Source of the DNA: Cliona cf. orientalis
Taxonomy: Eukaryota; Porifera; Demospongiae; Clionaida; Clionaidae
Assembly: GCA_963930775.1 (NCBI GenBank)
Contig: OZ005702.1
Coordinates: forward strand, 3,596,001-3,660,000
Direction: 5' to 3'
DNA: 64,000 bases
The translations under genes and the position numbers were made by a program. Below, piece by piece: positions 3,202-24,700 of this stretch. The notes beneath the pieces are model-generated. The model searched no databases, had not been told where the DNA came from, and worked only from the letters and a program-made list of their open reading frames with translations. How positions within the stretch are numbered: the stretch's first letter is position 1; each line of letters opens with the position of its first letter.

Positions 3202-3762
3202 CTATTATGATTGAGAATTTGGAGTCAGAAAATGAAAATGCGGAGATCCAAGTTGCTACACTGGATATGTCAAGAGAGGACAGTCCTGTCCCAGGAAAAA
3301 CATCCAGACCATCCATTATTGACTTGGCTGAAGCGGTGTACAAACCTGGTAAAAAACGCCCACCTTCTGATAAGTTCAAACTCAGACAGGATCTTCTTTC
3401 TTATACTTTTAGTGAGTGCATATATTAGTACTGGTAATTTTGATACAACCACAATATCGTATTTCCATTCTTTAGCTCCTAACACTGGTATGCAACTCTG
3501 GCTTCAGCAGTTTTGGGCAATGTTTACCAAGAGGTTCTACAATTCTTTGAGGTTCTATGCAGCAGTAATATCTCAGATTTTTTTTCCAATCCTGTTTATT
3601 CTCTTTGGGATGATACTGGCAGTCACAGGCCCTGGCCGCGACCAAGATAATCCCAAGAGAGTCTTAACTCTTAAAAATTCTGCTCTCTTTGGTGGTAACA
3701 TAAGCCTCTTCTATGCTCAGTTGGGTGAAATTAATGTTGGAAATACCTCCTTCGTCTTGTCC
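3202..3762 (+). CDS. ABCA exons: inter-domain linker and first helix of TMD2
   Basis: Two exons (3202-3411 and 3476-3762) joined by a 64-bp phase-1 intron. The first encodes a charged linker (rich in E, D, K) expected between NBD1 and TMD2. The second begins [20 protein letters not shown], a basic pre-membrane segment typical of ABCA, then one strong hydrophobic helix ([20 protein letters not shown]) and the start of the extracellular loop with an N-glycosylation sequon (NTS). The 5' border of the first exon is uncertain: the acceptor AG at 3200-3201 has a weak pyrimidine tract. Confidence 0.8.
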
Positions 3763-6700
3763 GTGAGTTTATGAATAGTCTCTTGAAAGATATTCCACTA
3801 TCTTATTAACAATTACTGGTATGCTGCTTGGGATGGTAGTTTCAAAGGCATATTGTTCTGACGTTTACGATGTATAGCTTAAATATGTCTGTGACATAGA
3901 CCATGATTGTATTGGACTGGATGTCACCCACTTAGTCTAGGTATTGATACCTCTTGCAACAGTACGATGCCTCATCGCCATCAAAGTTATGTACTTAATC
4001 ATATGTGATGAGCAAAGGCTCACTCTATTTGAGGATTTGCATCAAGGTATACCAGTATGTGGACATACTCACAGGGGCCCTCTTTTAGGATATACAATTA
4101 TTAAATTAATAGATGGTACACATCTTAAATGGCATTTTATTTGTTATAGGGATTGGAGTTGTCAGACCTTGGTTCCACTAATATATTTGATTATACGGAT
4201 GAAATATTGCATATCAAAGACAGAGCCAGTCAGAATTTCACACTAAATGACTGCTGTAGCTACAAGTACCAGCTGCTTGACCAGTATTGTGTTTCAAGAC
4301 CTTATGTAAGAAATTATTCGATAATCACCACAACTAATTAACAATCATGCCCGTTCATCCTGTAGCAACTCCTCAATAAAACTTGTGCTTCACAGACTGA
4401 TTTCAGTTATGCTGCTTGTTCACACTGCCTTAGGTAAGTAAGTAATAGTTACATCACGGGCACGAGGGATGTATGGTATTTATTGCACTGAAGCCCAAAG
4501 GCAATAAATGCCATGCATCCCGAGTGTGCATGATATAACTAGTTTATATCCTGTGGCATAGCTACCATAAACACACGAACACTAAATAATAGTTAGACAC
4601 TGTTTAGTCGGTTTCTACGTGATTTAGAAGACAGAAGGGCTCTGTGTAGAATCCCGAGCAAAGCAAGGATTCTACTGAGCCCTGAGGTCTTCTAAATCAC
4701 GTAGAAACCGACTAAACAGTGTCTAACTACTTTAGATCCTAGCAACAATGCCCAAAAGCTTTGTGTATAAACTAGAGCTCTGTAGAGCACATACCCCGCG
4801 CACTCTGTAGCCACAGTAGTGCTAGCGTAGTATTGCAACACTCTGCGGTATAACTGCTTTATGATTTGACAACCCTTTCCAACACTGAGCTTGAGCATGT
4901 GCAGTCGCATCAGCATACTATTTATTATGCTAAAAGAGTGGGTGTGGTCGATAAACCACCGGCATGCTGAACAGAAAATGCATGATTTGTAGTAGTAGTA
5001 AGCCTTTTTGAGCAATTCTAAGCACATTCAAACTAGTTATTCACCAACATCTACGTACCAATTCGTTGTGCTTACAGCACGCACAGATGCCTAGAACACG
5101 AGATCTGGCGATTTTCGTGCCGACAATGGTAATGACGACGACGATAGACAGACAAACCGATTGCTTTACCCCTTGCACACGCGCGCGGGGTAACAATTGC
5201 CTAGCAACAAACTAATAAAATTTACCAGGAGCTTACAAGGTACATTTTGTATTTTATGAAGGATGCTACAGTTTAACCAATCAGATCACTGTATTTGTTA
5301 CAAATAGGATCTAAAAAAACAAGCTTATCTTACTCAAAACGGACACACAAAGCCGCTGTCTGAGTCAAGTTCAATCAAACTTCTGAACGTCTCGTGACCG
5401 AGGGGTGTGGTCAAGTCCTAGTCTAGCGCTAGCGAGCTAAACCCTCTCTCGCTCGCCACTTAGTGGGTGTGGTTTTTGCTTTCAGACCACACCCACTAAG
5501 TGGCGAGTGAGAGAGTGTTTAGCTCGCTAGACTAGGTCAAGTCCACACCATAACAAATACTGCAATTTGATTAGCTACTGACAGGTATCTATATCTCATA
5601 GTCACCTACAAGCTTCTCATAGTCACCTACAAGTTTTGCCCTCTGGCTCTTAGCAATACAAAACAATATGATCTAAACTTGTTAGATCTAGACACTGTTT
5701 AGTCGGTTTCTATGTGATTTAGAAGACCTCAGGGGTCTCATAGAACCCTCGCTTCGCTCGGGATTCTATATAGAGTCCTTCGGTTTTCTAAATCACATAA
5801 AAACCTCCTTATTAAACAGTGTCTTATGTAGACTTGCGATCAATCGATGACTCCGCCCATCGCTTCGAACTGGCCGGTACCTTTTCCGCTATATGCTCCA
5901 TTTAGATCATAGCTGCAACAATACTGCAATTTGATTGGCTACTGACAGGTATCTCTATATCTCATAGTCACCTACAAGCTTCTCATAGTCACCTACAAGT
6001 TTTGCCCTCTGGCTCTAGCAATACAAAGCATATAAACTTGTTAGACACTGTTTAGTCGATTTCTATGTGATTTAGAAGACCTCAGGGCTCTCATAGAACC
6101 CTCGCTTCGCTCGGGATTCTATATAGAGTCCTTCAGTCTTCTAAATCACATAGAAACCTTCTAAACAGTGTCTAACTAATATTTAGTCTCGTGAGACGCT
6201 CCATTGATAGTTTTACTTTTGTTGCTACCAACATGTGTATTGTTCAAGGCCTGCAGTATTGAGTATTGCACTTGACTTCCCTTGAGCCACTAATATTGCA
6301 CTGTGGGGTTCCTGGAGCTATTCATATTGCACTGTGGCTTACTTGAGGGTGTTCATATTGCACTGCTTGTCTCTAGGAAGTGCATTATGGTGTATATTTT
6401 ACTTAGCAACAACAGTAACAGGATATAATATAAGTTACGTCAGGAGCACATGAAGAGAAGGAGTGTATAAGTCACTTATATACAGTGGTAATATCGAAAA
6501 ATAAAGTAACACTGGCAGATTCTCATTCCTGCTAATGCATAGCAGGTAGAAACATTTTGACTAAAATTCTGTAATCCAAATGATGTGACTACTAATGGGA
6601 GAAGCAAAAATTACCTCAATAAGTTATGGTTGGCAAGTTAGAAAATTGCCATATATGGAAGTTTTTGAATATTTTCACCGATAACTTGTGGTTACAGTGT

Positions 6701-9700
6701 TTGTGGCACATTACGCTATTCTTGGTATAGTATAGCACCCGCTACGATTATCTATAGGTGTAGTTAGATTTATTTGTTGAGGCCATCACAAGACATTGAT
6801 ACAATTTACTTTATTTTAGATAATTTCTAGATGTACACTCCTTCTCCATGTGCTCCTGGTTACGTTAGTAAGGCTCATTTTTACAATTTAACAATTACAT
6901 GCAGGTGCTGTCAATCAACAACTCAAAATCGGAACATTCTAATGTCTTGCAGTAACCCGTTATCTCTTATATTCCCTTTTGAAGGTTTTACTAGTGGACG
7001 CTTCTGTCCAGCTCCTCCCAAATTGAGTTATTCCTCTTTCCAAAAGTCAATTCCGCAAGGTCCTCTGGAGAATGATAATATTTACATTGCTGAATACCTT
7101 CTGCGAACGGCTGATTCTATCAAACCAGATGTCTTTTTCCGACGATTTCAAGGTGGCTTCTCCCTCAGTTACAATGAGCCTTCATACAGTATATGTGGTT
7201 GTAATTCAACTCAAGATGTTTGTAATTTCTTTACTCCGTTGAGAGCCTCCAGTGATGGGCAGTGTCCTCGATATTCCATTGATCAACAATGTGCTTTGAG
7301 CTGGGCTGCATGCTACGCTTTTCCTCAGTCTTGCAGAGATATACTGGAGGAGTGTAGAGGTATATTACTCTCCAGAATCAAGCAAAATGAAACACATTCA
7401 ATCTGCTCAACAGTTGATAATTCATCAAATTCAGCCATAGTTTTGCAGTCCTTTACAACCATAATGGAACAATGTATAACATTGAGAAATGTGTCCAATT
7501 TTAAGACAGCTTACAATGACACCAATATTAATGGTTCCATTGCTGATGAACTATTAGCAGATATCCTGCAGGTAACTGCACCCACTCTACTTATATATCA
7601 GCTTATACCCATCATTCTCTTTCTCCTACTTAGTCATGTGGAGTCATTAGTAATGGTGAAAATGTGCCAATTAACATTCTGCAAGTAAGCATGTTTGGCC
7701 TTATACTGTCAGGAGCATAGTATTATGAGTGCCACAAGGCGCTCATATCAGCAGATACTGACTTAACTATTTCTTTCCTCGAAAGTCCTGCAGATCTGTT
7801 GCTAATAATTGTATCCTGCTTAGTGGTATTTTGGACTCAAACTTTGACTGCAATGATAATGCTATAAACTGTTCCATCCTGGGTGGATCATCAACACATA
7901 TTTTACAAGTAGCTTGCGTTAATTTTGGCAACTATCTCTGCTTACCAAAATTTAATATTCCTTTCTATAGTTGTGCACTTCTATAATGGAAGAATGTGAA
8001 CTACTACAGAACACAACAGATCCTCGTACTGAATGCAACAATGTCATTGCTGGTGGAACTTTGGCTGTCACTAAGATTGCATGCAATGAAACTGTATCAA
8101 GCTGTTCCACTGTTGATGGGCTGTCAGCTGACATCCTACAGGTAAAGATGGCCAGTCTACTGTAGTGTCCTGGGCAAGCACCCATGTGGTGTGAAATAGC
8201 TATAGTCGTGTTTACCTGGGACACTACAGTGGTTGGCATTGCATACCAAAATGTTCAAATGAGTAGCTTCTGATTATGCTAATTAGTATGGTGCATGTGG
8301 AAGGCTGCCAACACTAAACTCCACATGTCCTACACAAGAACAGACAGTAGGAGCAGTCTATCCTGATAGAGATGGCCAAATTCAAGCTACTGTGTGGTAC
8401 AATAACCAGGTACTGTTGTGTCATCTTAATTTATAAATTCTAAATACTGTGTTCTTGTAGCCATTTCATATGCCTGCTGCTACGCTTAACACATTCCATA
8501 CCATTCTGTTGAGAAGTGTGACAGGAAAAGATGATATCACTATTGTCGTCAACAATCATCCGCTACCTCGCAGCAATGCCTCTGTGCAGGTATTTATATG
8601 TATCACGTACAGTATTAATTTTGCTTATAAATACTATATACAACGAAAAATATTTTTCAGAGCGACAATTTTCTTATAATAATATAGCTAGTCCATGTCC
8701 TAACCTGGAGGGCACAAAAGATGTGCTCTGCTACGTAGTTCAGAAGGCCCCGGATTGGTCAGAATTGCAGTGCTGTGTGCACAAACAAGGGTGGCTATAG
8801 AGATGCCTTGAACGAACGGCGCAAAGCCTGCTCAGTATGCAGCTAGGCCATGTGTCTGACAGTACTGCCTATAATATCTATGCTATACTGGACTAGGGTG
8901 CCAAGACAGTCAATATGGCTGTCTAGTACTTCTATGAAGGCTTGCAGGAATTCTTACATAATATGTTTAGCGCACCAAATGTTCTTTACCCAGTGAATCG
9001 AAGCAAGGTATAACTTACTTTGGCATTTGAATAATGTTCATGTCTGTTTTAGTTTGTGAGATTACCTAGCACAAAGAGTGTCTATCTCTGTCAAGTACAT
9101 AAATTTCCGCGTACACTTCCGGGCGTAATGAGGATGGTAGAATTTTCGCAAGCATAATAATGTGTCGATCTCAAATTAAAGATAATGTATAGTCCCTGGT
9201 GCCACCGAGCCTCAAGCGAAGTAAGAGACGAGGTTTGTTCTTTGTCATAGTGTGGTGGTAGATTCAACGTTCGAGCAGAGCAAGAATGTCGCCATATCCA
9301 CCTGCGTCAAGGGATGTGGTCTTCGAAATAATAGGTTCAAAGTTCATGCTGCTGCATGTGCACTGTACTACCGGTATAACAGTTGACAGCTAGGGAGATG
9401 ATACTGTTTAGATTTTCTCTGAGTATGTGAGCTTAATATTATACTGTGAGTAACTCGTGCATAATATTAGCCACATTATCCCATGAATGTGACATCAAAC
9501 ATTCTTGTTATACAATGTAGGTTAATGATGCACTCTCAGACCCTACTGGTTTTGGTATCAGTGTACTTGTTGTGTTTGGCTATAGCTTTTTGCTTGCCAG
9601 TTTTGTACTATTCTTGGTAAAAGAAAAAGAGTCTAAGGTCAGATAGCTAGCTTCAAGTTTGGTTAATCTTGAGTCTTGATCATTGGTTTTTAATACAGGC

Positions 9701-12700
9701 TAAGCACTTACAGTTTGTTAGTGGTGTGCACTCTTCAAGTTACTGGCTGGCTACCTTTGCCTGGGATCTCCTCAATGCTCTTGTTCCCATCATCATATCT
9801 ATCATCATCTTTGCTGCATTTAGGGTTGGTGCATTCAGCAGTCCTGAAGCTTTGGCAGCTATTTTTGTGCTCTTGGTGAGTACCTACTACACATCACTGC
9901 CATAGTGCATGTGGCAGTGATTTTTTCTGGCCATCCATGATTGCATGTGATCTCCATAGGTGCTCACAACTTGGGCAAGTATTCCACTGACATATACAGC
10001 ATCCTTTATCTTCTCTAACTCACTTGCTGCTTTTTCCTTGTTAATGATTTTCTTCTTCTTTTCATCAATGGTAAGCTCTTCTGAGTAAGTGGCATCTGTT
10101 CTTTTTACATAACTACCGGTATTGCCTTTCAATTTTAGCTGCTGTTAACAGTGATATTTGTCCTCCAGTCTTCAGATGATAACGAGGGAACCACGGACAC
10201 ACTAAATTACGTGTTTCTCATCTTTCCAACGTTTGGGTTTGTAGATGTGCTTATGATAGTATATACATACCTAGCCTCGTACCCAGGCCCTCAAAGGGTC
10301 TGAGTACGATGCTAGTACGTACCATACTGTGGCCTTCCTAATTCTTCGGTACCCTTTACCGAACGATTGGAAATAGTCTAATTTTCAGCAAAGGTCAATG
10401 GGAATATACCGTACCCTTGCAAAAGAGGGCCCATGGGCGGTACACCTTACATTGGGCCAAGATCGGGGGGGGGGGGGGGGGGGGTGGGCCGATATTTGAG
10501 GTATCAGTATCGCGTTTATACGTGAAAGAGCGCCCATGCAGGTAAATTATACCCATGCTAGCTTATTTCATAATTTGAATATTAGCAGCGGCTAGGCTAC
10601 TATTGATTTCAGCCTTATTCAAGCACAGTTATCAATCCAGAGCAAGGGCGGCCGTGATACTTCACCGTGTGTCTTTGAGTGCAGCCCTATTAAGTGGGTG
10701 TGGCTGTGATCGCTAGCCGTGTATGATCGTTTATTTCTGCTGAAACGTGGCATAAAGCTAGCTAGGCTTAGTTTTACAGCTGTTTAGCACGTTACTTGAT
10801 CTTACATAGACTATTCGAAGTTTGGTCCTCATAAACCAGCCATTTGAGCTGCGTTTTCAAGGGCAGCTACATATGGCCGCATGTTCGAGTAAACACTAGA
10901 CCTTAGCAGGAAATTGAGCCCAAAGTGGGGGGTGGGCCGACATTCCATTGTGGGCCCTCTTTCGCGAGGGTACGGTATATAAAAGCGCATGATGTTAGAA
11001 TGTTGAATATCATAGATGATATAGTGTGGACTTAATTACTATATCGTCTACGACTATATATTAACCTCAAAATTCAGCAAAGCTCAAGTAATACTATTGT
11101 TATCTTACCAGATGTTTAAAAGACACATAACCATTTTTAGACTTTCTTCCTCATTCAACGATCTATACATTAACCAGAATCTGAAAGAAGTGTGTCAACA
11201 GCCTGAAATCCAAGTGTATGCATAGTGTCTACAAATGTATTGTTCATAGTACTAGTGCTATTGCATTTTATGTACAGGTTTTGTGCTAATAATACTGCCT
11301 TCAATTATGTTGATAACCCATTTGAATTTAACAAACCAGGAATTGGTTTAACCCTCATCTACATGTTTGTTGAAGGTATTATATTCTTCATTCTTACCCT
11401 CTTTATAGAGGTATGTTGAACTTAAACCTACGATTTCTTAATAATTTAATATGATTATCACACTTTCCCTTCATAGAACAAGTTTTTTATACCTGATTTA
11501 AAGGCCTTCCTCAAGAAAGAGGGACCTGGCATGGCAACATCTATCTCTCTTGTGAAAGAACAAGTATGAATATACAATCATGCATACAATGTTATCATAA
11601 ATACCTGTTAGTCCAAAATGTTTATGGTTTCAGGATAGTGATGTGCACACAGAGGAACAAAATGTACTCAGTGGAAATGCAAATAATGACAATGCCATCA
11701 TCATTAAGAACCTTGTCAAGGTAGGTAATATTCTGTATACATGAACATTTTTGATGGATAAAAATTTAGCTACCTTTATATTGCAGAAATATTTGGTGGA
11801 ATAAATTTTCACCATTGCGGTAAAGGTAGCCATATACCGTAACCTCGCAAAAGAGGGCCCATGGGTGGTGCACCTTACATTGGGCCAAGATTGGGGGTGG
11901 GCCGATATTCGAAGTATCAGTATAGACTAGGCCGATACTTCACTGTATGTCATTGACAGCAGCCATATTAAGTGGGCGTGGATGGTTACGATCACTAGCC
12001 ATGCATGATCATTTGTTTGTGCTGAAACGTGGCATAAAGCTGGCTAGGCTTAGTTTTACGGCTGTTTAGCAGGTTACTTATCAATCTTACATAGACTATT
12101 CGAAGTTCAGTCCTCATAAGCCAGCCATTTGAGCTGCGTTATTTTCAAGGGCAGCTACACATGGGCACACATTTGAGTAAACATAGACCTTAGAAGGAAT
12201 TGAGCCCAGAGTGGGAAGTGGGCCGATATTCCGTAGTGGGTCCTCTTTTGCAAGGGTACAGTATTATCCTCTATGTAATCATTAACAGGATGGAAATTTA
12301 GCCTGATAAATTTTCGCCAATGAGATCGATCAGGTGGCGATAAATTTCTCATAGCAAAATTACGTACACGGTACATTAGAATCTGATTGTAACAAAATAT
12401 AGCAATCTGATTGGTCAGTTGGAGGTTCATTATTTCACTTAGAGACCTCTCACTTGACTTATAGACCTCTTGGGGCTAATACTGGACTGCCAAGGGAAAA
12501 AAATGATGCACAGTGCAACAGTAGCCCAGCTAATCCCCAGGCTAGTTATAGCTGCCATGTCCAATGGTCTCTACGCATTTTAAGAGACCCTTAGGCCCTT
12601 AGTAGTACCTTCACTTCGCTTGGGATGCTACAGCTCAGGGCCTTTGGGTCTCTTAAAATGCGTAGAGACCTTGAACTCAGTCAAAACACTGGCCATATGG

Positions 12701-15700
12701 CAGGGAGGGCCTGGGGACCAGCAAGACTAGCTAGGTCAATCAAAGACTAAGGCATAATATTATATAATAATTGTAATTGGTTCCTGTAGGTCTACTCCCC
12801 TCACTTGAGTGGTTGTAGGATCAAGCCAGCTAAGAAGGCTGTTGATGGTATCAGTTTGGCCATACCTAATGGAGAGTGCTTTGGGCTGCTTGGAGTCAAT
12901 GGTCAGTACAGGATGACTGTAACAAAATTAGAATATTATAATACTAGGAGACATCTGAAGCTACATCATCATGCAGTTAAGTCATCACTGTTTCAGTTCA
13001 TAAATATGATGTAGGGATATATCTCCTAATATTAGTTTTCCATCACTACCACTTTTGTTACATCGATGCCGAGTCCCAAGCAACATATTAAATAAAAATT
13101 TGGCCAGCCTATGAGGTAATGAAAGTTATGATGAAATTGCTGTGAAGATTGTTTCAAAATGTCTAGCTTGCATGATAGGGTGTTGAGACCATGAATTCGA
13201 ACATAGCGTATGGACTATTGATGAGATATAGGCAATTCTCTCAGTTAGCTTTCTTTGGCGAGCTCGTACTCTAGTAATCCGAGTCTGGGGTACCAGCCCC
13301 TTCGCAAGAGAGAGGAAGGGTCTGGTAACATCGCTATACCCGCATTGTGCTCATGGCTGGAATGTGGCCATGGCCAATCAGATCACAGTGTTGTCTACTG
13401 CACGACTGCCATGTGCAGTCCTTGCTCGCGTGCATGATCGGCTTTGAATCGCACCAGAACATAGTACTATGATCATTGGCGCATGCACAATGATTTTGGT
13501 TAGCAGCCACATGAGGTGCAGTCCACAACATACACTGTAGTACAACTTACATTCACAACATTCCACGTGCACAAGAGTAGTATAGCGATGTTATCATATC
13601 CTTCCTTCTCTCTTGCAAAGGGGCTGGTACCCCTGACTTGGTGACGTCACAGTCAACCGGCTCACGCCATGCCCCAATAATATTGAGCATGTGCAGTTGT
13701 CAATGTTTCCGAGGTCAATAATGGGTGGCGTACGCTAGCAGTGTGATACTTTTCTGAGGGACGAGGGATATAGTAAGTTTTTCATTATATCCCCAAGTAA
13801 CAATTTACTTTTCTGTGGTTATAAGGTAATTAGGGTGTAACCTATGGTGAAATTATATATGATCGATGTAATCTATGAAGTAATTATGAGAAAACTCAGG
13901 GCCTCAATAGGGCCTTCCCTACTCAAAATGGAACGCCTGAAATATGCATGTTTCAGCACATTTCATGTTCCCAAATCCAGAAATTTCTGGGACTTGAATG
14001 TCAGTACATATATAGAGTGTCTTATGTGTGTATCTAGCAATACTTTAATACAAGCAATGTGTTGCCTTCTCTGACAAGTACTGCTAGCTAAATTTCACGC
14101 ATTTTCTTGGTATGTGTAGTACATACATGTACCATGTATATGCCATCAGGAGATCTATAATAAATGTAGTGCACGCAAATGCAAGAATGTCAGCCAGTGA
14201 TGAGTCAGACGAGTTACAAGAACCATCGCTATAATGTACATGTACCTACACATGCACTAATCGTCTTGAAAAGAAGCGATCACTATCTCTCTTATCCGCT
14301 CATCAAGAAGTGAAGAAGGCAGAGATGGTCAGCAAATGTTACCAAAACTTTTGCACCAAGCATTTCTATGATATCCATATAACACGTTTCTTGAAAATGC
14401 CGTAAAGCCTAAAATTTAATGGTGCCTTATTAAACTAGGTAACAGACACATGCATGCCCATGCTCACTAACACTCATACACAGAAAAACTGCCATACCCT
14501 TCGCATATGCACTGAGGGTTAATATTATGCGGGTGTTTACAATGTAGGTGCCGGAAAAACAACTACATTCAGTATATTGACCGGAGATTTAGCTCTGACC
14601 TCAGGAACTGCTGTTGTAGCGGGTTATGACATTAGGACGAATCTCAGAGATGTAAGTGTATAATGTTACTTATATACTTCTACATGTACATGTATATTTT
14701 TGTGCAAATGATAACGAAGCATCATCATGCAAAATCCTCAGTGCAGTTGCCTGAGCACCACACTAAAATATTGAATAGGAATATATACATGTAGTTGGAC
14801 TGTTGCAGTGAAATTATAATAGTATAGCGCAAGATAGTAACCAAAAAATGTGACTTTATGACACGTGCACCACGTTTTTCAGGCTGGCTAGGCAAATTGT
14901 AGTACCATGTTTATGCTAATAAAACGCATGATCTAATTAGCACAAGAAAATTCGCGTTCTAGGATTTTTCATAGTGTATCTTAATGGAGCGCGTGACGAC
15001 CTTTACCAGAAAATCGCGCAAAATTTAAAATCGTAATTATTTTTTTAGCTTGCGTTCTATTAGCATAAACACGGTAATTATATGCTAATCATAATAATAC
15101 AAGTATAAAAAACAATAAAATTGAAGGATGAAATAGGGATGGCAGGGTCAAAAAGTACACAAGCAAGATTTGAAAGGGATAAGCATCTGCTATACATCCC
15201 TTCGCTTGCTTTTCTTTGATTATTATGCACCTATTAATGTTGACGTGTTTGTCGAGTGCGGCATGTGGGAGACATTCAGATTGTTCCCTGGTTGTCACGA
15301 TGGTTCAGGATAGTCAGTTTTGATTCAGTTACATTATTTTGCACCCCTCAAAAAGCAAGCGAAGGGATGTACATGTACATGTATAGCAGATGCCTATCCC
15401 TTTCAAATCTTGGTTGTGTACTTTTTGACCCTGCCATCCCTACTTCAAATTTCATTGTTTTATACTTATTCAAGAACCGGACACACTAAGCAGAGAAAAA
15501 CAGTCCAGAAACCACCACATAGTTGAGCTGGATGCATATAGCAGACCCATGCAATGCAAGCAGGCAGCCTAAACTTCAAATTTGACAAAAGTGGGTAAAG
15601 ATCGTCATGTTACTGTGCGCGCATAGCCACGCCCCTCACGTAGCATGTGGGCGGAAAATATTACAAATGCATGGCTTTCCTATACTAACATAATATTATT

Positions 15701-18700
15701 ATTCAAAGGGTCATAACTTTAATTGTAAGGCGTGAATCAAAATTCTTTCAGGTCAAATCTCTAGTTTCAATCCATTCTGCATGCATGCCCATGTAAAAAT
15801 TATCCCCCCAAGTGTTCCCAAACCTCCCCATGAATTAGATTATTTATTGGGGTGAGTCTGAGCGAGCCCCACATAAATGGTACAGATGTGCATGAATTTT
15901 ATATTATATATTATGGTACGTCTATCACACGAAATTATATACCAGCGATGCTCTATATATGGGCATAAACGCGAAACATTCTATTGCGCATTCTCATGCC
16001 TGGGACACGGGCCATATATACACCGTTCTAAGTTAGCGAATTGCAAATTTACACTCGTGCTTTTGGTACTCGTACTCAGCAATGATTCGTTCCCAGACCC
16101 CGCCATGCATTGCAATCATGGCGCCATGCATCAACGCTGAACCGAGTGTAAACCAGAGAAAGATAAGGCTGCAAAAGAGGACAGAACTCGTCATCAATCA
16201 CAGTCAGCTCAACAGCGTGAGGAGCGCCCAAGAAGGCGATCGAGACTATGATAGACTTGCTGCTCACTGAGACTCAGTGTCACATACATGGCATATAGAA
16301 TAGACACTGTGTGGAGGGGGCTGTCGGTTACGAGGCTAGTACACGGCAACTATGACTGTCATGGTATGCTTGGATCTGCGTGTGTGCATGGTTTTCACAA
16401 TCTATGCCGTGGCTTTTCGGGTCTCAGCTAGTAACAAGCCTTTCTCAGCTCAGGCTCGCCCCAAATAGGCCATGCATGTCCCTAGTTTATTATTTAATAG
16501 TTTGTTTTTTTTTCAAGAAGCGGACACACTAAGCAGAAAAAACAGTCCAGAATCCACCACATAGATGCACAATAGACCCATGCCATGCATGCAGGCAGCT
16601 AAACTTCAATATTGACTGAAGTGGGTAAAGGTCGTCAGGTTTATGTGCGCGCATAGCCCCGCCCCTCACATAGTGCATGGGCGAAAAATATTGCAAATGC
16701 ATGGCTTCCTATACAAATCTATGGGATAACTTCAAAGGCCCGTACCTTTTTAATTCTAAGGTGTGAATCAAAAATTCCACAAGGTCAAATCTCTAATTTC
16801 GACCGATTCTGCGTACCCGTGTAAAAATTATCTCCCCAAGTGCTCCCAAACCCCCCGTGAAGTTTTATTTTCTTCTACCAAGAAGCGGACACACTAAGCA
16901 GGAAAAAGTCCAGAAACCACCATATACATGTACATGTAGTTGAGCTGGATGCATAATAGACCCATACAATGCAAGCAGGCAGTCTAAACTTCAATTTTGA
17001 CCTAAGTGGGTAAAGGTCGTCACGTTACTGTGCGCACGTAGCCATGCCCCTCACATAGAGTGTGGGCAGAAAGCATTGCAAATGCATGGCTTCCCTATAC
17101 AAACAGGAAACTTTAAAGTGCCGTAACTTTAATTCTAAGGTGGATGTGTGAATCAAAATTCTGTTTGAGGTGTGATCCATTCTGCGTGCTCATGTGAACA
17201 GTTCGTCATGAATAGCTTCCCAGAGTCTCAAACATTAATTAAACTAGTGGTGATGAAAATCATCTGTGCGGGGTGAGCCTTCGCAAAGTCACAAGATTTC
17301 ATTGAAAGCACACAGGCACGCATGCACACATGGGGTTGGTACCTCAATAGCTAGGCCTGAGAAGCTACCACGACAGTGAAAGTATCACAGATTGCTAGTA
17401 TATTAAATAGCTATAGTCCAATAGTGGTCTATATGCCATGATCATGAGTCCAAGTACCTGTAGCCAGGCCCTGAGAGGATAAGCCTCCATGCAGTCATCT
17501 TCATGCTTAGGAAAATGGAGTCTACCAGTGATGTTAATCGTGGACCTGAGCCTTGCCAGAGTGGTACAGCACTCACCTTTCCAGTTTTATGCCTCGCCTA
17601 CACTCGAGTTATCTCTCAGATCGATGGGCGTATGTGCATGCGCATGACGACCCTTACCTTACGCTTTCAAAATTTAACTCTCTCCTCAATGAAATGATCA
17701 CCCCACAAACATATATATATACATATAAAACCACTTCCTGTACCTCGTGTATTCGGGGCTCGCTCAGGCTCGCCCCGAATAATTATTTAAATTTTTCTAC
17801 TTAGAGTGTAAATTGCTCTTAGTATAATTACCCCGCGCGCATGCGCAAGGGGTAAAGCAATCGGTTTGTATGTCTGTTGTTGTTGTTGTTGTTGTTGTTG
17901 TAGTTGTCGTCGGCACGAAAATCGCCAGATCTCGAGTTCTAGGCGTCTGTGCGTGTTGTAAGCACAACCAATCAATAGATATCGGTGAAAAACTGGTTTG
18001 TACGCGCTTCGAATTGCTCAAAAAGGCTTACTAGTGCTACAAATCGTGCATTTTCTGTTCTGCATGCCTGTGGTTTGTCAACCACACCCACTCTTTTAGT
18101 ATGCTGATGCAACTGCGCATGCTCAAGCTCAGTGTTGAAAAGGGTCGTCAAGTCATAAAACAGCTTTGCCCAAGTTGCGGTATTGCAGAGCGCGCGGGGT
18201 ATGTGCTCTACAGAGCTCTAGTTTATCAATGCCATCTTACATGGTTTGCTCATTCAACTCTCAACTTCTGTACGTCCAGTGTATATAATTAAGTAGCTAG
18301 TAGATGGGAGGTGCGGAAGTTCGCACGTGCGTGCCAAGTCTTAGCCACACCCTTCAAGGTGGCTGACAAAGAAGGCTGCCCAGGTAGCGGTGTATTCCAT
18401 TAGGGAAAAATCAAGTTGTGAACTGGCTGTTATACTGACTGCTGAGGAGCCTGAGAAAGGTGCAATATTGGCTATTTAGACATATTATACTTTATACCTA
18501 TTATATATAAGTGTATAGTATGGTATTATTTAGTATTAAGTGTAGACTATAAAGTATAATTGTCTAAAGTGTAAAGTATCAAAAGTACCACTACATTTTA
18601 TCAAGCAATACACAATATTATTATGGCCTTAACATTAGTTATTACCAGAGAATGTCTAAAGTGTCTAATGTGTCAATATTGCATTAATTAGACTCACTAT

Positions 18701-21700
18701 ATACACACATTAGACTGCAGTTCACAATAGACTTTCATTTGCGGGGTACTATGCTTTTGGGAGGGGTGCATGTCCATTTCATATGGGGGTAGTCTTTTAT
18801 TGGAGGGGTGGGCCATTTCTTGGGGGTAGTTTTTTTTTATTGGCATGGGGTATGCCCACACAGAGAACGAAGGTCACGTGATCAGTTGCCGCCGTATACA
18901 GGGTCAAAGGTCAATGATACAGTGCTTTAAATCTTTTTTAAGGCTATCCGTCCAATATCGACAGTTGTGAAGGTCTATGAACTTCGGCCGATAATTGGTA
19001 AATATTCTGATCATTGAAGATTTAAGAGCCATCTGATGGTCCATGAGATCATTAAGAAGCTAGTGATTTAATAGCACCACCAAAGGTCCATAATAAGAGG
19101 CCTAAATGTATACCATTGCATAGGTGCTTTTGAATGCCACAAGGACAATTGCTGAAGGTACATGTAATACATCAGATCATTGGTGGCCTGATTTTTTAAT
19201 CAAAGCTGAGTCATCTTGTTGTCCAAAACTACAACATATTCAGCTAGTCCAGAATCCCTTAAAATCACCATGCATGTTAAGCCAATACTAACAGTACTAG
19301 CGTTCCTAACCATCTGATTTTCTCAGCAAATCTGCATGATAGCAACTGGCGCCATGGCATTTATCAGATGGCTCTCACAATCCAAGATGTGAACATTTAT
19401 AAGCTTTCTTCTATCTTCATAACCATCAAATACAATAGCGTTGGATGCACAGCGATAAAAGAAAGGTTTTGATCCATTTAAAGCATAGTATCGTTGACCT
19501 TTGACCTTGTTACAGGACAGTAACTGATCACGTGACCTTTGCTATCTAGCTAGCTCTGTGCATGTAGGGGCGTGGCTGGTACTTACACCCAGTACCCCAA
19601 GAAATGGCCCACCCCTCCAGCAATAAAAGACATCCCCCCCAAAATGAAATGAACATCCCTCCCAAAACAATAGTACTAGCTATTATTATTATACATCTTT
19701 CACTAATAACTATACGATCCCAATATGAAAAGTAGCCATACCCCTACTGAAGATTGCTACCCCACCAAAATTTACAGTGTACTACCCCCCATATAGAATA
19801 CCGTATACCCCCAAGGAAATATACACCACAGCAAGAAGAAATTTCTACCTCTAAATGACCATGCACCCCCAAATAAGATGGATACCCCTCTCACAAAATG
19901 ACTACACCCTCCATAATTATGACACTAACATAGCCCCTTACAATATTGCATTGATTAGACTCACTATATACACACATTAGACTGCAGTTCACAATAGACT
20001 GTATAAAGTTAGTGTGTATAAACTAGATCTACGGTGACTTTAATTAATAGATCTATAATAAGGCCATGTCTAAAGTGTCAATATTGCATTGATTAGACTC
20101 ACTATATATAGCTACACACATTAGACTGCAGTTCACAATAGACTGTAGTTGGTGTGTATAGACTACGTACAATTACTTTATAATAGAATAGAATGCCAAA
20201 AGTGTCAATGGTTGAGTGCTTTCGTTTTAATGACACATAAAATTATTAGAGGGGAACTGACTGGTCTCATTATCATTAACGTTTGGCAGAGTCATCGAGT
20301 GCTTAAACAGTAAAAATATATTTGGCAGGGTATTTAAACCAAGGGGTAGTATATTCAAACATTACATTTGGCAGGGGGTCGAGGTATTTAAACATTACAT
20401 AATAATTTTAATATACTCGGCGGGGGTCATGGCATTTAAACATTGAAATATGTTTGGCAGGGGGGTCATGGCGTTTAAACATTGAAATACGTTTGGCAGG
20501 GGGATCGTGGCGTTTAAACATTAAATAGTTTGGCAGGGGGGTTGTGGCATTTAAACATTAAAATATGTTTAATTTGGCAGGGGGGTCGTGGCGTTTAAAC
20601 ATCAAATAGTTTGGCAGGGGAGTCATGGCATTAAATATGTTTGGCAGGGGGGTCGTGGCATTTAAACATTAAATAGTTTGACAGGGGGTCATGGCGTTAA
20701 ATATGTTTGGCAGGGGGGTCGTGGCGTTTAAACATTAAATGGTTTGGCAGGGGGGTCGTGATATTTAAACATTAAATAGTTTGGCAAGGGGATTGAGGCA
20801 CTTTATATACATTATACACATACAGTATAATGTTGCACATAATAATATATTATCTGTATAGAGTGTGTATATAGCGCATATAATGTGGCAACTGTAGATA
20901 CTTTAGACACTGTAGATACTTCAGACAAGATTCGGTTAAAAGATTGAATTTATACAATATTATGTGACATCATCTAATGTATGTATACAAGGTGTCTAAT
21001 ATTGGAGAAGCATCTACAATTCACTTTAGACAGTCTACAGTCTATAGTTATCGTATAATGTGTCTAATCTGCCAATATTGCACCCTTATGAGGAGCCTCT
21101 TGATACCTAGTTCACTGTATAACGCTCAGCTCGCACTGGCCTACTTAACTAAGCTATAGTTAGTTTGTGCGGGAGAGCCTAGCTGGCACCTGGCGTCGAG
21201 CTAGGCGAGGCTAGAACTGAGCACGAGTAGCTGAGCGCTGAGCCAGCTACATTGTAGTTAGTTGCGGTCCGGTTCATGCTGCATCGCGTGCGCTGCGCCC
21301 CTGACCATAGTCACATGATTTCACCATGGCAACACATTCCAAGCATGTGCATTATTATGTCAATCAGACACACCCATTAGTTAATGCACCGTACACACCC
21401 ACCATTACATATAACTGTTGAGATATAGATAATGCCAAACTAACGTGCCATGGACCTGACATGTATTCTGGAGCATTCTATTGCATGAGCATGCACAGTT
21501 ATGACACCATTAGAACTGCGTAAGGGTGCCTAGCCAGACGCCAGAGTTCTGGGTTAATTGCGACCGGATTTGGGTGAAACTGCCCTTTACCCACTCAGAA
21601 ACAGTATGCACATTTATGGCATCCTGCTTAAGCACATGGCTAAATCAATCAACTGTCCAAAAAAGCCGTTAACTTGCTCGTAGCTCCCCTTGCAAGACTT

Positions 21701-24700
21701 GAGTAAGAGAGAAGCCGAAGTCAGAATCTACTGCCTCCATGATGATCACTAGGACGACTTCTCACGAATCAAGCTGCTTGCCTAACTGCAGGCGAATGAA
21801 TGTAAGTCCCCATTTGTTACTTGGTTTTGTACAGTCCGTCCAAGAAGCTAGTGTTTGTTCCTGTAGCTAGTGTCCAGGCTGGCACTCACAGAGATCACCT
21901 TGTTGTAGCTTCCAATGCGCAAGATCAAATCACTTCCGCCAACCTTCCGTAATGGACAGATGGACAGATGGACGGACAGACAACATACTATAAATTGGAT
22001 CATACGTTAATTACTGTACCCTCGCGAAAGAGGGCCCGCTACGGAATGTCCGCCCACCCCCCACTTTGGGATCAATTTCCTGTTAAGGTCTAGTGTTTCC
22101 TCGAATATGCGCCCATGTGTAGCTGCCCTTGAAAACGCAGCTCAAATGGCTGGTTTATGAGGACTGATCTTCGTAAGATCGGTAATTAACGTGCTAAACA
22201 GCTGTAAAACTAAGCATATAGCTAGCTTTATTCCACGTTTCAACACAAGTAAACTAACGCACACGGCTAGCCACGCCCACTTAATAGAGCTGCACTCAAT
22301 GACACACAGTGAAGAATCGCGGCTGCCCTTGATCTGAATTGGTAACCGTGCTTGAATAAGGCTGAAATCAATAGTAGCCGCTGCTACTATCCATATTATG
22401 AAGCTAGCGTGGGTAACTTACCTGGGCGCTCTTTCGTGTATAAATGCGATACTGATACCTCAAATATCAGCCCACCCCCAATCTTGGCCCAATGTAAGGT
22501 GCACCGCCCATGGGCCCTCTTTCGCGAGGGTACAGTATATTCGATTAACTACGGTATTCTATCTATGGTTCCCCAGACGGTTGCCAAAATTGCCATTTGT
22601 GATTATATAATGGCTTCTGGCGACTGTCTAGTCAGGGACGGATCTTGGGGGGGGGGGGGGGGGGGTGTTGGGGTTGCAACTCCCCCAAACGATTTTGAGC
22701 AGCCCCTCCCACTTATATACAAGGCTTACTATATAGCTTGGCACAGTAGCTGCCACTGTATGGTTAGCAGCAGACAATCTGTGTAGTACATAATTGGCCT
22801 CAAACCAACAGGTGGTGCATGGTGGTTAGTGGTACACCCTGAACATGGCTTCAGCTATATATGAACAATCTACTGTAGACCACAAGAGTCAGCTGTGGTG
22901 CTAGGCATGGTAAAAGCTCTATACCTACAGTGTTATAGTACCTTACTAGGTCACAGTCACTCTCTGGGGCACGAGAATATGATTAAAAGTGTGCGTGGCT
23001 CATTAAAGGTAAAAACCCCACCATTCCAAAAATCCTGTATCTGCCCCTGCTAGTTGGCGAAAGTGGGAGGAGTGTAGCTAGTAGGTATGGTTGGCAGCAG
23101 CTAAGCTATGTAGTACATAATATAATTAGCAATATGTGGTGCACGGTGGTTAGTGGTACACCCTGAACATGGCTTCAGGTATTAATAATCTACTGCAAAC
23201 CATAAAGGAGTCAGCTGACAACAGTTATTAAAAGTGAACGTGGTCACAATAAATTTCACGCACTTCATACAATTATATCTGCAACCCAACCGTACTAAAA
23301 TTCCTAGTGATACTATGCCTACACATCCTGGTGGGCAATCAATACCAAAATCAGATCATGCAGGTACACACTGTGTACATACGTACGTGAAAATTTTCAC
23401 TGGATCAAAAATAATTCATGGAAAAAATTTTCGCCAACACAGTGAAGGTCACCATATCCTCTAACACAGGACAAAATAATTAGCATGATAAATTTTCTGC
23501 CAATGAGAACAGGCACCGGTGATGAGATTGGTGAAATTTTCTCCTTGCGAAAAAAAACTTTATAGCCTAATCCAAAATCATTGTACTTGCAGCCAAGCTT
23601 AATTTTATATGCATATATACAATTCATGCATGCAGGTACAGCAAAGAATTGGTTACTGCCCTCAGGTAATCATTCTTTAGAAGTATTACTGTGCTGATAA
23701 TAAACAGTAATAATTATTGTAGTTTGATGCTTTGATTGAACGTCTGACTGGAAGAGAATTGTTAACAATGTTTGCAAGACTACGAGGAGTTCCAGAGAAA
23801 CAAATTAACGAAGTGGTGGAGACAGAGCTCACTAGATTGGATTTGAAGAAGTATGCAGACAAGAAATGTGCAAACTATAGGTTGGTACACAATGCAAAGC
23901 TGTTTCTTTTATGCTCATATGTACTTTGTGGCATTGCAGTGGTGGAAACAAGCGCAAGCTGAGCACTGCTATTGCTCTTGTTGGCAATCCTCCAATTGTC
24001 CTGCTGGATGAGCCCACAACAGGAATGGACCCTGCCACACGACGCTACCTCTGGGATATATTGACAGGCATCACAAAGGAAGGAAGGAGCATTATATTAA
24101 CATCACACAGGTACATAAATATTTACCATACCTTCACGAAAAAGGGTCGATGGGTGGTGCATGTTATATTGGACCTAGAGTGGGGGTGGGCCAATAATCC
24201 ACTGAGGCAGATAGATGCGAAAGAGAGTCCAGATTAATTACGTACTCAAACTTCGTATTACTTGAACAGTAGGCGCAGCTACGGTACTATTGATTTTAGT
24301 TGTGCTCAAGCACAGTTACCATTTGTGAGCGAAGGCAGCCAGTGATTGGGCAATACTTCACTGTACTTGTTGACAGCAGCCATAACTAAAATGGCTGATT
24401 TATGAGGTCAAATAATTGATGCGAAGATCGAAAAATGCCAGCCAAACAGCTGCAGAACTAATCCTAGCTAGTCTTATGCTGCATTTCAGCACCAAAGAAA
24501 GTGATCGTGCATGGGTTGCAGTCATAACCGCACCTGTTGATAGTGATTGTGCATGCATGTTCCAGGGCAGCTACATATGTATGCATATTCGAGTAAACTT
24601 AATAGCTTAGCAGGAAATTGAACCCAAAGTGGGGGGTGGGCCAATATTCCATAGTTTGCCCTCTTTTGTGAGCGTACAATACTTGTATACATAAAAATAT

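Follow-up and report, generated by a model that had tools for sequence, protein, structure and literature searches.

The window, a stretch of 64,000 nucleotides of Cliona cf. orientalis DNA, lies within contig C14 of a genome searched over 217 Mb in 149 contigs. It carries on its + strand a gene, P1, which its sequence identifies as an ABCA transporter with two NBDs; lipid transport is probably its activity, a putative role assigned from ABCA membership. NBD1 (GHNGAGKTTT, LSGGMKRKL and VVILDEPTSGMD) is situated upstream of the window, as is the end of TMD1, recognised via the similarity of P1 to its sister gene P2; NBD2 is inside. The motifs of both NBDs we take to be Walker A, signature and Walker B. 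The exons of the large second ectodomain (ECD2) occupy about 3.7-8.6 kb of the window. All exon boundaries in P1 were called from sequence, and the features used below are the following:

3476..3762, + strand: exon e10, start of TMD2 (70% identity to P2; donor TCC|GTGAGT; acceptor boundary set by eye)
4153..4302 (approximate), + strand: exon e11, first part of ECD2, placed by similarity to P2
6905..7571, + strand: exon e12, Cys-rich conserved ECD2 core (6906-7328), then units u1 and u2; donor CAG|GTAACT; relatives P0005 and P0006-P0018
7329..7448, + strand: u1, 40 codons, SCRDILEEC...AIVLQ, grouping with u1 of P0006 and P0008 in the unit tree and with that of P0007 by alignment only
7449..7571, + strand: u2, 41 codons, SFTTIMEQC...ADILQ, placed by similarity and tree, with no intron between it and u1
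7634..7684, + strand: u3, a short copy, 17-codon phase-0 exon identified by splice layout alone
7786..7908, + strand: u4, 41-codon phase-0 exon with two CX6C pairs (Cys 2, 9, 22, 29) and the weak donor CAA|GTAGCT
7971..8141, + strand: u5, 57-codon phase-0 exon; its 14-residue tail is the conserved part, common to single-unit relatives
8287..8409, + strand: exon e13, 3' of the array (YGACGR...VWYNNQ), phase 0, ending in Q|GT
8461..8589, + strand: exon e14, conserved ABCA segment, whose P2 counterpart aligns to ABCA1 and ABCA3
9527..11416 (approximate), + strand: about six TMD2 transmembrane exons, placed by similarity to P2
12790..25748 (approximate), + strand: NBD2 and C-terminal exons, placed by similarity to P2

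Much of the family assignment was made through P2. A Pfam scan of an 825-residue P2 fragment returned ABC2_membrane_3 (PF12698, E 4e-35) and ABC_tran; the exons of P1 match P2 across the whole TMD2, and each of the 29 P2 exon queries from outside the array found a match in the P1 region. The best 13 of 158 solved-sequence matches to the spliced P2 fragment are ABCA3, ABCA1, ABCA4 and ABCA7, with ABCA3 and ABCA1 the best among the matches listed. Two NBDs and ABC2_membrane_3 are common to these genes and to ABCA1, ABCA3, ABCA4 and ABCA7 (chains 7tbw, 7w01, 7lkp, 8edw), as is the succession of a second ectodomain, a conserved F/YNNQ-H segment and TM helices. Unlike in the known ABCA proteins, an array of repeated units adds about 200 residues 5' of the conserved segment. 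In all 13 ABCA matches the best stretch begins at query residue 363 or later, past the array; the segment next to it (the array ends one exon before) aligns to ABCA3 from residue 1045 and to ABCA1 from residue 1585.

The array of P1 consists of five copies of a ~40-residue unit immediately 5' of the conserved segment, which reads "WYNNQ-FH" here. Two copies lie within exon 6905-7571 and three form phase-0 exons of their own. The unit begins with S-C-x6-C-x-L-L, continues into a sequon-rich middle and ends in [IV]xQ. An earlier, sequence-only reading had described four successive exons ending in -ILQ at phase-0 donors, the last three being symmetric phase-0 exons of 17, 41 and 57 codons, and had placed at least two units in the first. 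This layout was recovered throughout: codons of the first exon begin at 6906 after a split codon, its donor CAG|GTAACT begins at 7572 and it contains both u1 and u2; exons 7634-7684, 7786-7908 and 7971-8141 are open, bounded by AG and GT, and in phase 0 on both sides. Phase 0 and the Q|GT ending are also found in the next exons (NNQ|GT, SVQ|GT), so these traits reflect in part the donor consensus and the habit of the gene and are not specific to the array. A competing CAG acceptor lies 8 bases past the u4 acceptor AAG (7786-7793); splicing there would lead to a frameshift into a stop.

P1u4 and u2 of P0008 each have two CX6C pairs (Cys 2, 9, 22, 29), an arrangement nearly matched in P0017, and these could form disulfides; P1u2, P2u2 and P2u3 have one Cys each, so the pairing is not always kept. 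Each of the two arrays contains 8 sequons, against shuffle means of 4.1 in P1 and 3.6 in P2 (62 and 27 of 2000 shuffles as high, respectively). Pfam scans, run on the exons and on the P2 fragment of 825 residues, assigned no above-cut-off domain to the array; below the cut-off, Attractin (E 0.077) and DUF6811 (E 0.14) weakly matched the stretch formed by the core end and u1. The core-exon profile had no match among solved structures, and structure predictions of P0003 and P0002, each made without relatives, reached mean pLDDT values of 33 and 51.

Similarity of the units was compared with that of shuffled sequences in versions that left the unit ends free, cut them off or fixed them. Without their last three residues, P1 u1, u2, u4 and u5 gave a summed pairwise score of 272 (79 +/- 18 in shuffles, none of 1000 reaching it); when both ends were fixed, the score was 327 (127 +/- 17, again none of 1000). 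The z values ranged from 10.9 to 14.0 in four P1 tests and from 11.2 to 13.8 in three P2 tests, and in none of the seven did any of 1000 shuffles score as high. The 17-codon u3, with pairwise z of -0.6 to 1.6 versus the other units (a table from 300 shuffles), was not significantly similar to them. The proposal that the translated exons resemble each other above chance therefore stands for u1, u2, u4 and u5 and fails for u3. Neighbouring exons encode homologous sequence beyond chance, the 17-codon exon alone excepted, and on these alignments the P1 units other than u3 are taken to be homologous. With both strands scanned, the layout AG|xC...[IV]xQ|GTR with an open frame was matched three times within the window, always in the array, and twice among 120 kb from 14 further loci, each time in the P2 array; the pattern was devised after seeing the array and misses two of the four separate P2 unit exons.

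Querying the complete genome with the core exon yielded at least six matches, and a downstream exon likewise yielded at least six, at the same six loci. Open-frame reading assigned five units to P1 and the following numbers to the other five, where frames in P3-P6 were considered only from 26 residues upwards, so that a unit of the size of u3 could be missed:

C14:3.42 Mb: paralog P2, the sister of P1, 5 units
C12:293 kb: paralog P3, 1 unit
C12:280 kb: paralog P4, 1 unit
C14:2.977 Mb: paralog P5, 0 units
C14:2.941 Mb: paralog P6, 0 units

In P2 the core exon holds a truncated unit, and each of the other four units is a phase-0 exon of its own. Counts of 5, 5, 1, 1, 0 and 0 at six loci, together with the similarity of the units, support the earlier suggestion that a module of the ectodomain was multiplied, mostly exon by exon. 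Genome searches with single units found nothing outside the P1 and P2 arrays; they are insensitive, the P2u3 query matching only itself. The remaining loci form two further adjacent ABCA pairs, one at C14:2.94-2.98 Mb without a unit and one at C12:280-293 kb with a single unit.

Relatives were also sought beyond these six loci. Of 89 candidates from a protein search with the core exon, 14 reached E <= 1; in each of these only the core exon is visible, any units 3' of it being outside view. P0005 is near-identical to window exon e12. P0006-P0008, which are non-identical and come from other contigs, have the fused two-unit first exon of P1; P0009, P0010, P0012, P0013, P0015 and P0016 are of the P2 type with a short first unit; P0011, P0014, P0017 and P0018 have one full unit in the core exon. 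P0006-P0018 are likely from other species, since none of them, in contrast to P0005, closely matches any of the six own copies. Tree and alignment identify positional orthologs of u1 and u2 in these sequences from other contigs. In P0006, P0007 and P0008, identity to P1 is 90, 88 and 82% in the core, 65, 65 and 42% in u1, and 68, 69 and 49% in u2, and the four Cys of P1 u1 and u2 are retained; the units (42-69%) thus diverge faster than the core (82-90%), with frame and cysteines kept.

Long spliced queries gave one match each, P0004 from a metagenome (7980 scored candidates) and P0019 (3903), neither of which contains an array. P0019, an ABCA3-like database protein of the demosponge Geodia barretti and the sole named relative among those found, carries YEVDGLSADLLQ where the unit tail stands. 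Like P1, these array-less ABCA3-like proteins, P0019, P0004 and also P3-P6, possess the ECD2 core and the next segment. In P0019, P3 and P4 one unit or a unit tail is present, ending for example in VDGLSADLLQ or VDGLASNLLQ; unlike P1 with its five, all of these proteins have one unit or none.

In the paralog tree, built from conserved exons, P1 with P2 (100/100) and P5 with P6 (100/100) form pairs, which join each other at 83/87; P3, P4 and the unit-less P0004 stand in no supported order at the base. Two of its five inner branches are starred, and the outgroup fills 28% of the columns. The P4 unit is closest to u5 of P1 (z 6.9) and of P2 (z 4.8). The P3 unit is weakly like the array units (z at most 2.7) and reaches z 4.1 to the P4 unit. 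The presence of the same tail in the Geodia protein and the unit counts of the paralogs make a single unit likely for the ancestor; units would then have been gained in the P1/P2 line and lost in P5/P6. The unit was probably multiplied by tandem duplication before the split of P1 and P2. Separate expansion in the two genes is also possible. In a tree of 19 units (without P1u3, the P3 unit and the units of P0005, P0007, P0010, P0012, P0013, P0015 and P0016), positional groups are seen across sequences for u1 (92/96), u2 (92/91) and P2-type u1 (95/89). Resolution of this tree is low, with 2 of 16 inner branches starred, and the two u5 sequences, from P1 and P2, form no clade in it, so that it supports no one order of duplications.

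Comparison of P1 with P2 is complicated by uneven divergence, dS being 0.03-0.33 in some exons and 1.1-2.2 in others. Within exon e12, identity over 20-codon segments is 97-100% for those starting at codons 71 to 121, then 80% at codon 131 and 45% at codon 141, where the array starts. A patchwork of near-identical and anciently diverged parts is seen at window positions 6906-7331 versus the P2 locus (L010) and also in exons e04 and e16, the two copies being about 183 kb apart; gene conversion would be a simple reading of it. P1 versus P2 alone was rejected as a measure of fast array evolution, the genes being a patchwork of low- and high-dS exons, and comparison with P0006-P0008 is the better measure of divergence. 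The dN/dS ratio could be computed in 13 of 14 P1-P2 segments and is below 1 in all 13 (u1 of both genes and P1 u2 were cut one codon late, and e15 was started too early and includes a stop in P1). For u5 it is 0.22, within a range of 0.03-0.57 in other exons, at a dS of 1.6 that is rough and near saturation. The u5 tail is the same in P1 and P2 at 13 of 14 residues, and the u5 head differs widely.

The following origin could be proposed for the array. An ancestral single unit, occupying the 3'-terminal part of the ECD2-core exon and closed by a phase-0 donor, would have been duplicated in tandem, most likely in the gene from which P1 and P2 both derive. Copies that acquired acceptors would have become symmetric phase-0 exons, P1 u1 and u2 staying in one exon. 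The last copy would have retained the tail linking the array to the next ECD2 segment, and the inner copies would have diverged faster than the core. Conversion of a unit into a separate exon might have used the coding stretch before u1 as an acceptor: this stretch (CGCTTTTCCTCAG|TCTTGC) has an acceptor score of 2.6, the array acceptors scoring 2.1-6.9. The step is a conjecture, since the stretch resembles array introns no more than it does other introns; the array introns are also mutually dissimilar (best z 2.9 among 36 pairs). The most likely use of the array would be inclusion of all units, giving a ~200-residue, disulfide-pinned and glycosylated extension of ECD2, which would alter the reach of the ectodomain, its partner binding or its lipid handling. 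Taken together, we consider it probable that P1 is an ABCA gene in which a single unit was copied in tandem in the P1/P2 ancestor and the units are normally all included as an extension of ECD2.

The array might instead produce ectodomains of different length from one gene, u3, u4 and perhaps u5 being variably included as cassettes. The sequence-only reading had pointed out that such exons can be skipped without loss of frame, and indeed all eight combinations of u3, u4 and u5 are open and in frame; the u4 donor CAA|GTAGCT scores 0.7 versus 7.4 +/- 1.7 (minimum 3.5) for 23 other P2 donors, and all nine array acceptors (4 in P1, 5 in P2) are below the mean of 8.4 of the other P2 acceptors, although the scoring matrix was trained on the other 23 P2 sites and favours them. 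In-frame skipping, however, follows from phase 0 in any case, and phase 0 extends through the downstream exons, so the symmetry was probably required for duplication in the first place and less likely reflects control of splicing. The nearly invariant tail of u5, conserved in P1, P2 and the single-unit relatives, counts against free skipping of u5 and suggests that it is normally included in transcripts. Mutually exclusive exons are disfavoured by this tail and by the unequal lengths of 17, 41 and 57 codons. In a comparable receptor with an exon duplication, TGFBR2 (PMC13187141), skipping is reported as marginal in chicken and horse, with none seen in zebrafish. Variable inclusion is rated as rather unlikely. 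A still less likely, speculative extension is a tunable ectodomain, in which sponge-specific glycosylated CX6C modules on a lipid exporter, their number and identity varied by copy-number change between genes and cassette splicing within one gene, would bind different lipid acceptors, matrix proteins or microbial surfaces.

The array might also be a tolerated spacer, duplications having lengthened a permissive loop whose inner units drift without a specific role. The low identity of u1 and u2 to those of P0006-P0008 relative to the core, truncation of P1u3 and P2u1 among the ten units in the two genes and the loss of Cys from several units speak for drift; retention of open frames and of the cysteines of u1 and u2 in sequences from other contigs, the u5 dN/dS, despite its dS near saturation, and the similar lengths of the arrays (196 residues in P1, 202 in P2) speak against it, and we regard this explanation as doubtful. 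That the apparent exons arose by chance as open frames within an intron, or belong to a decayed gene, is very improbable: the short u3 is unlike the other units, but units match within and between genes, their exon layout was matched in the two arrays only (in the window and the 14 loci), the P2 exon queries from outside the array all had counterparts in the P1 region, and dN/dS is below 1 wherever it was computable. Normal inclusion of tandemly copied units as an ECD2 extension is retained as the preferred reading.

Multiplication of extracellular modules via exon duplication is already known, as described in reports on expansion of domain repeats (PMC1553488) and on duplication of the ligand-binding domain of TGFBR2 (PMC13187141). 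As in those cases, the P1 module forms neighbouring exons that are skippable in principle; unlike them, it is a short Cys-bearing insert in a transporter ectodomain, without a known domain, its copies are divergent and one exon carries two. For ABCA4 and ABCA1, a structural report describes ectodomain layers named lid, tunnel and base, a hydrophobic tunnel proposed as a lipid store or passage, and nine glycosylation sites built in the ABCA4 structure (PMC8219669). The lid is a possible site of the array, as the sequence-only reading had proposed. No described ABCA with such an array appeared among the papers listed by searches of open-access literature, in line with what the sequence-only reading had supposed, and what appears to be new here is the exon-repeat array in an ABCA ectodomain. 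To our knowledge, gain and loss of pieces in ABCA ectodomains has been little studied. Within one genome, members of one gene family carry none, one or five copies of a single module, and the first exons of relatives elsewhere hold two units, a single unit or a short one. Such a copy-number series could serve as a natural test of the effect of an ectodomain insert on a lipid exporter, and the array as a test case of whether frame-neutral repeats are alternatively spliced or simply all included.

Two introns of P1 should also be mentioned. The intron before exon 6905 contains three copies (about 4595-4725, 5690-5825 and 6045-6175) of an element with long inverted ends (GACACTGTTTAGTCGGTTTCT...AGAAACCGACTAAACAGTGTC-like), which, read by eye, resemble a small inverted-repeat transposon. 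NBD2 of P1 is interrupted by a 9-kb intron (about 14650-23630), the P2 intron at this place being about 0.1 kb.
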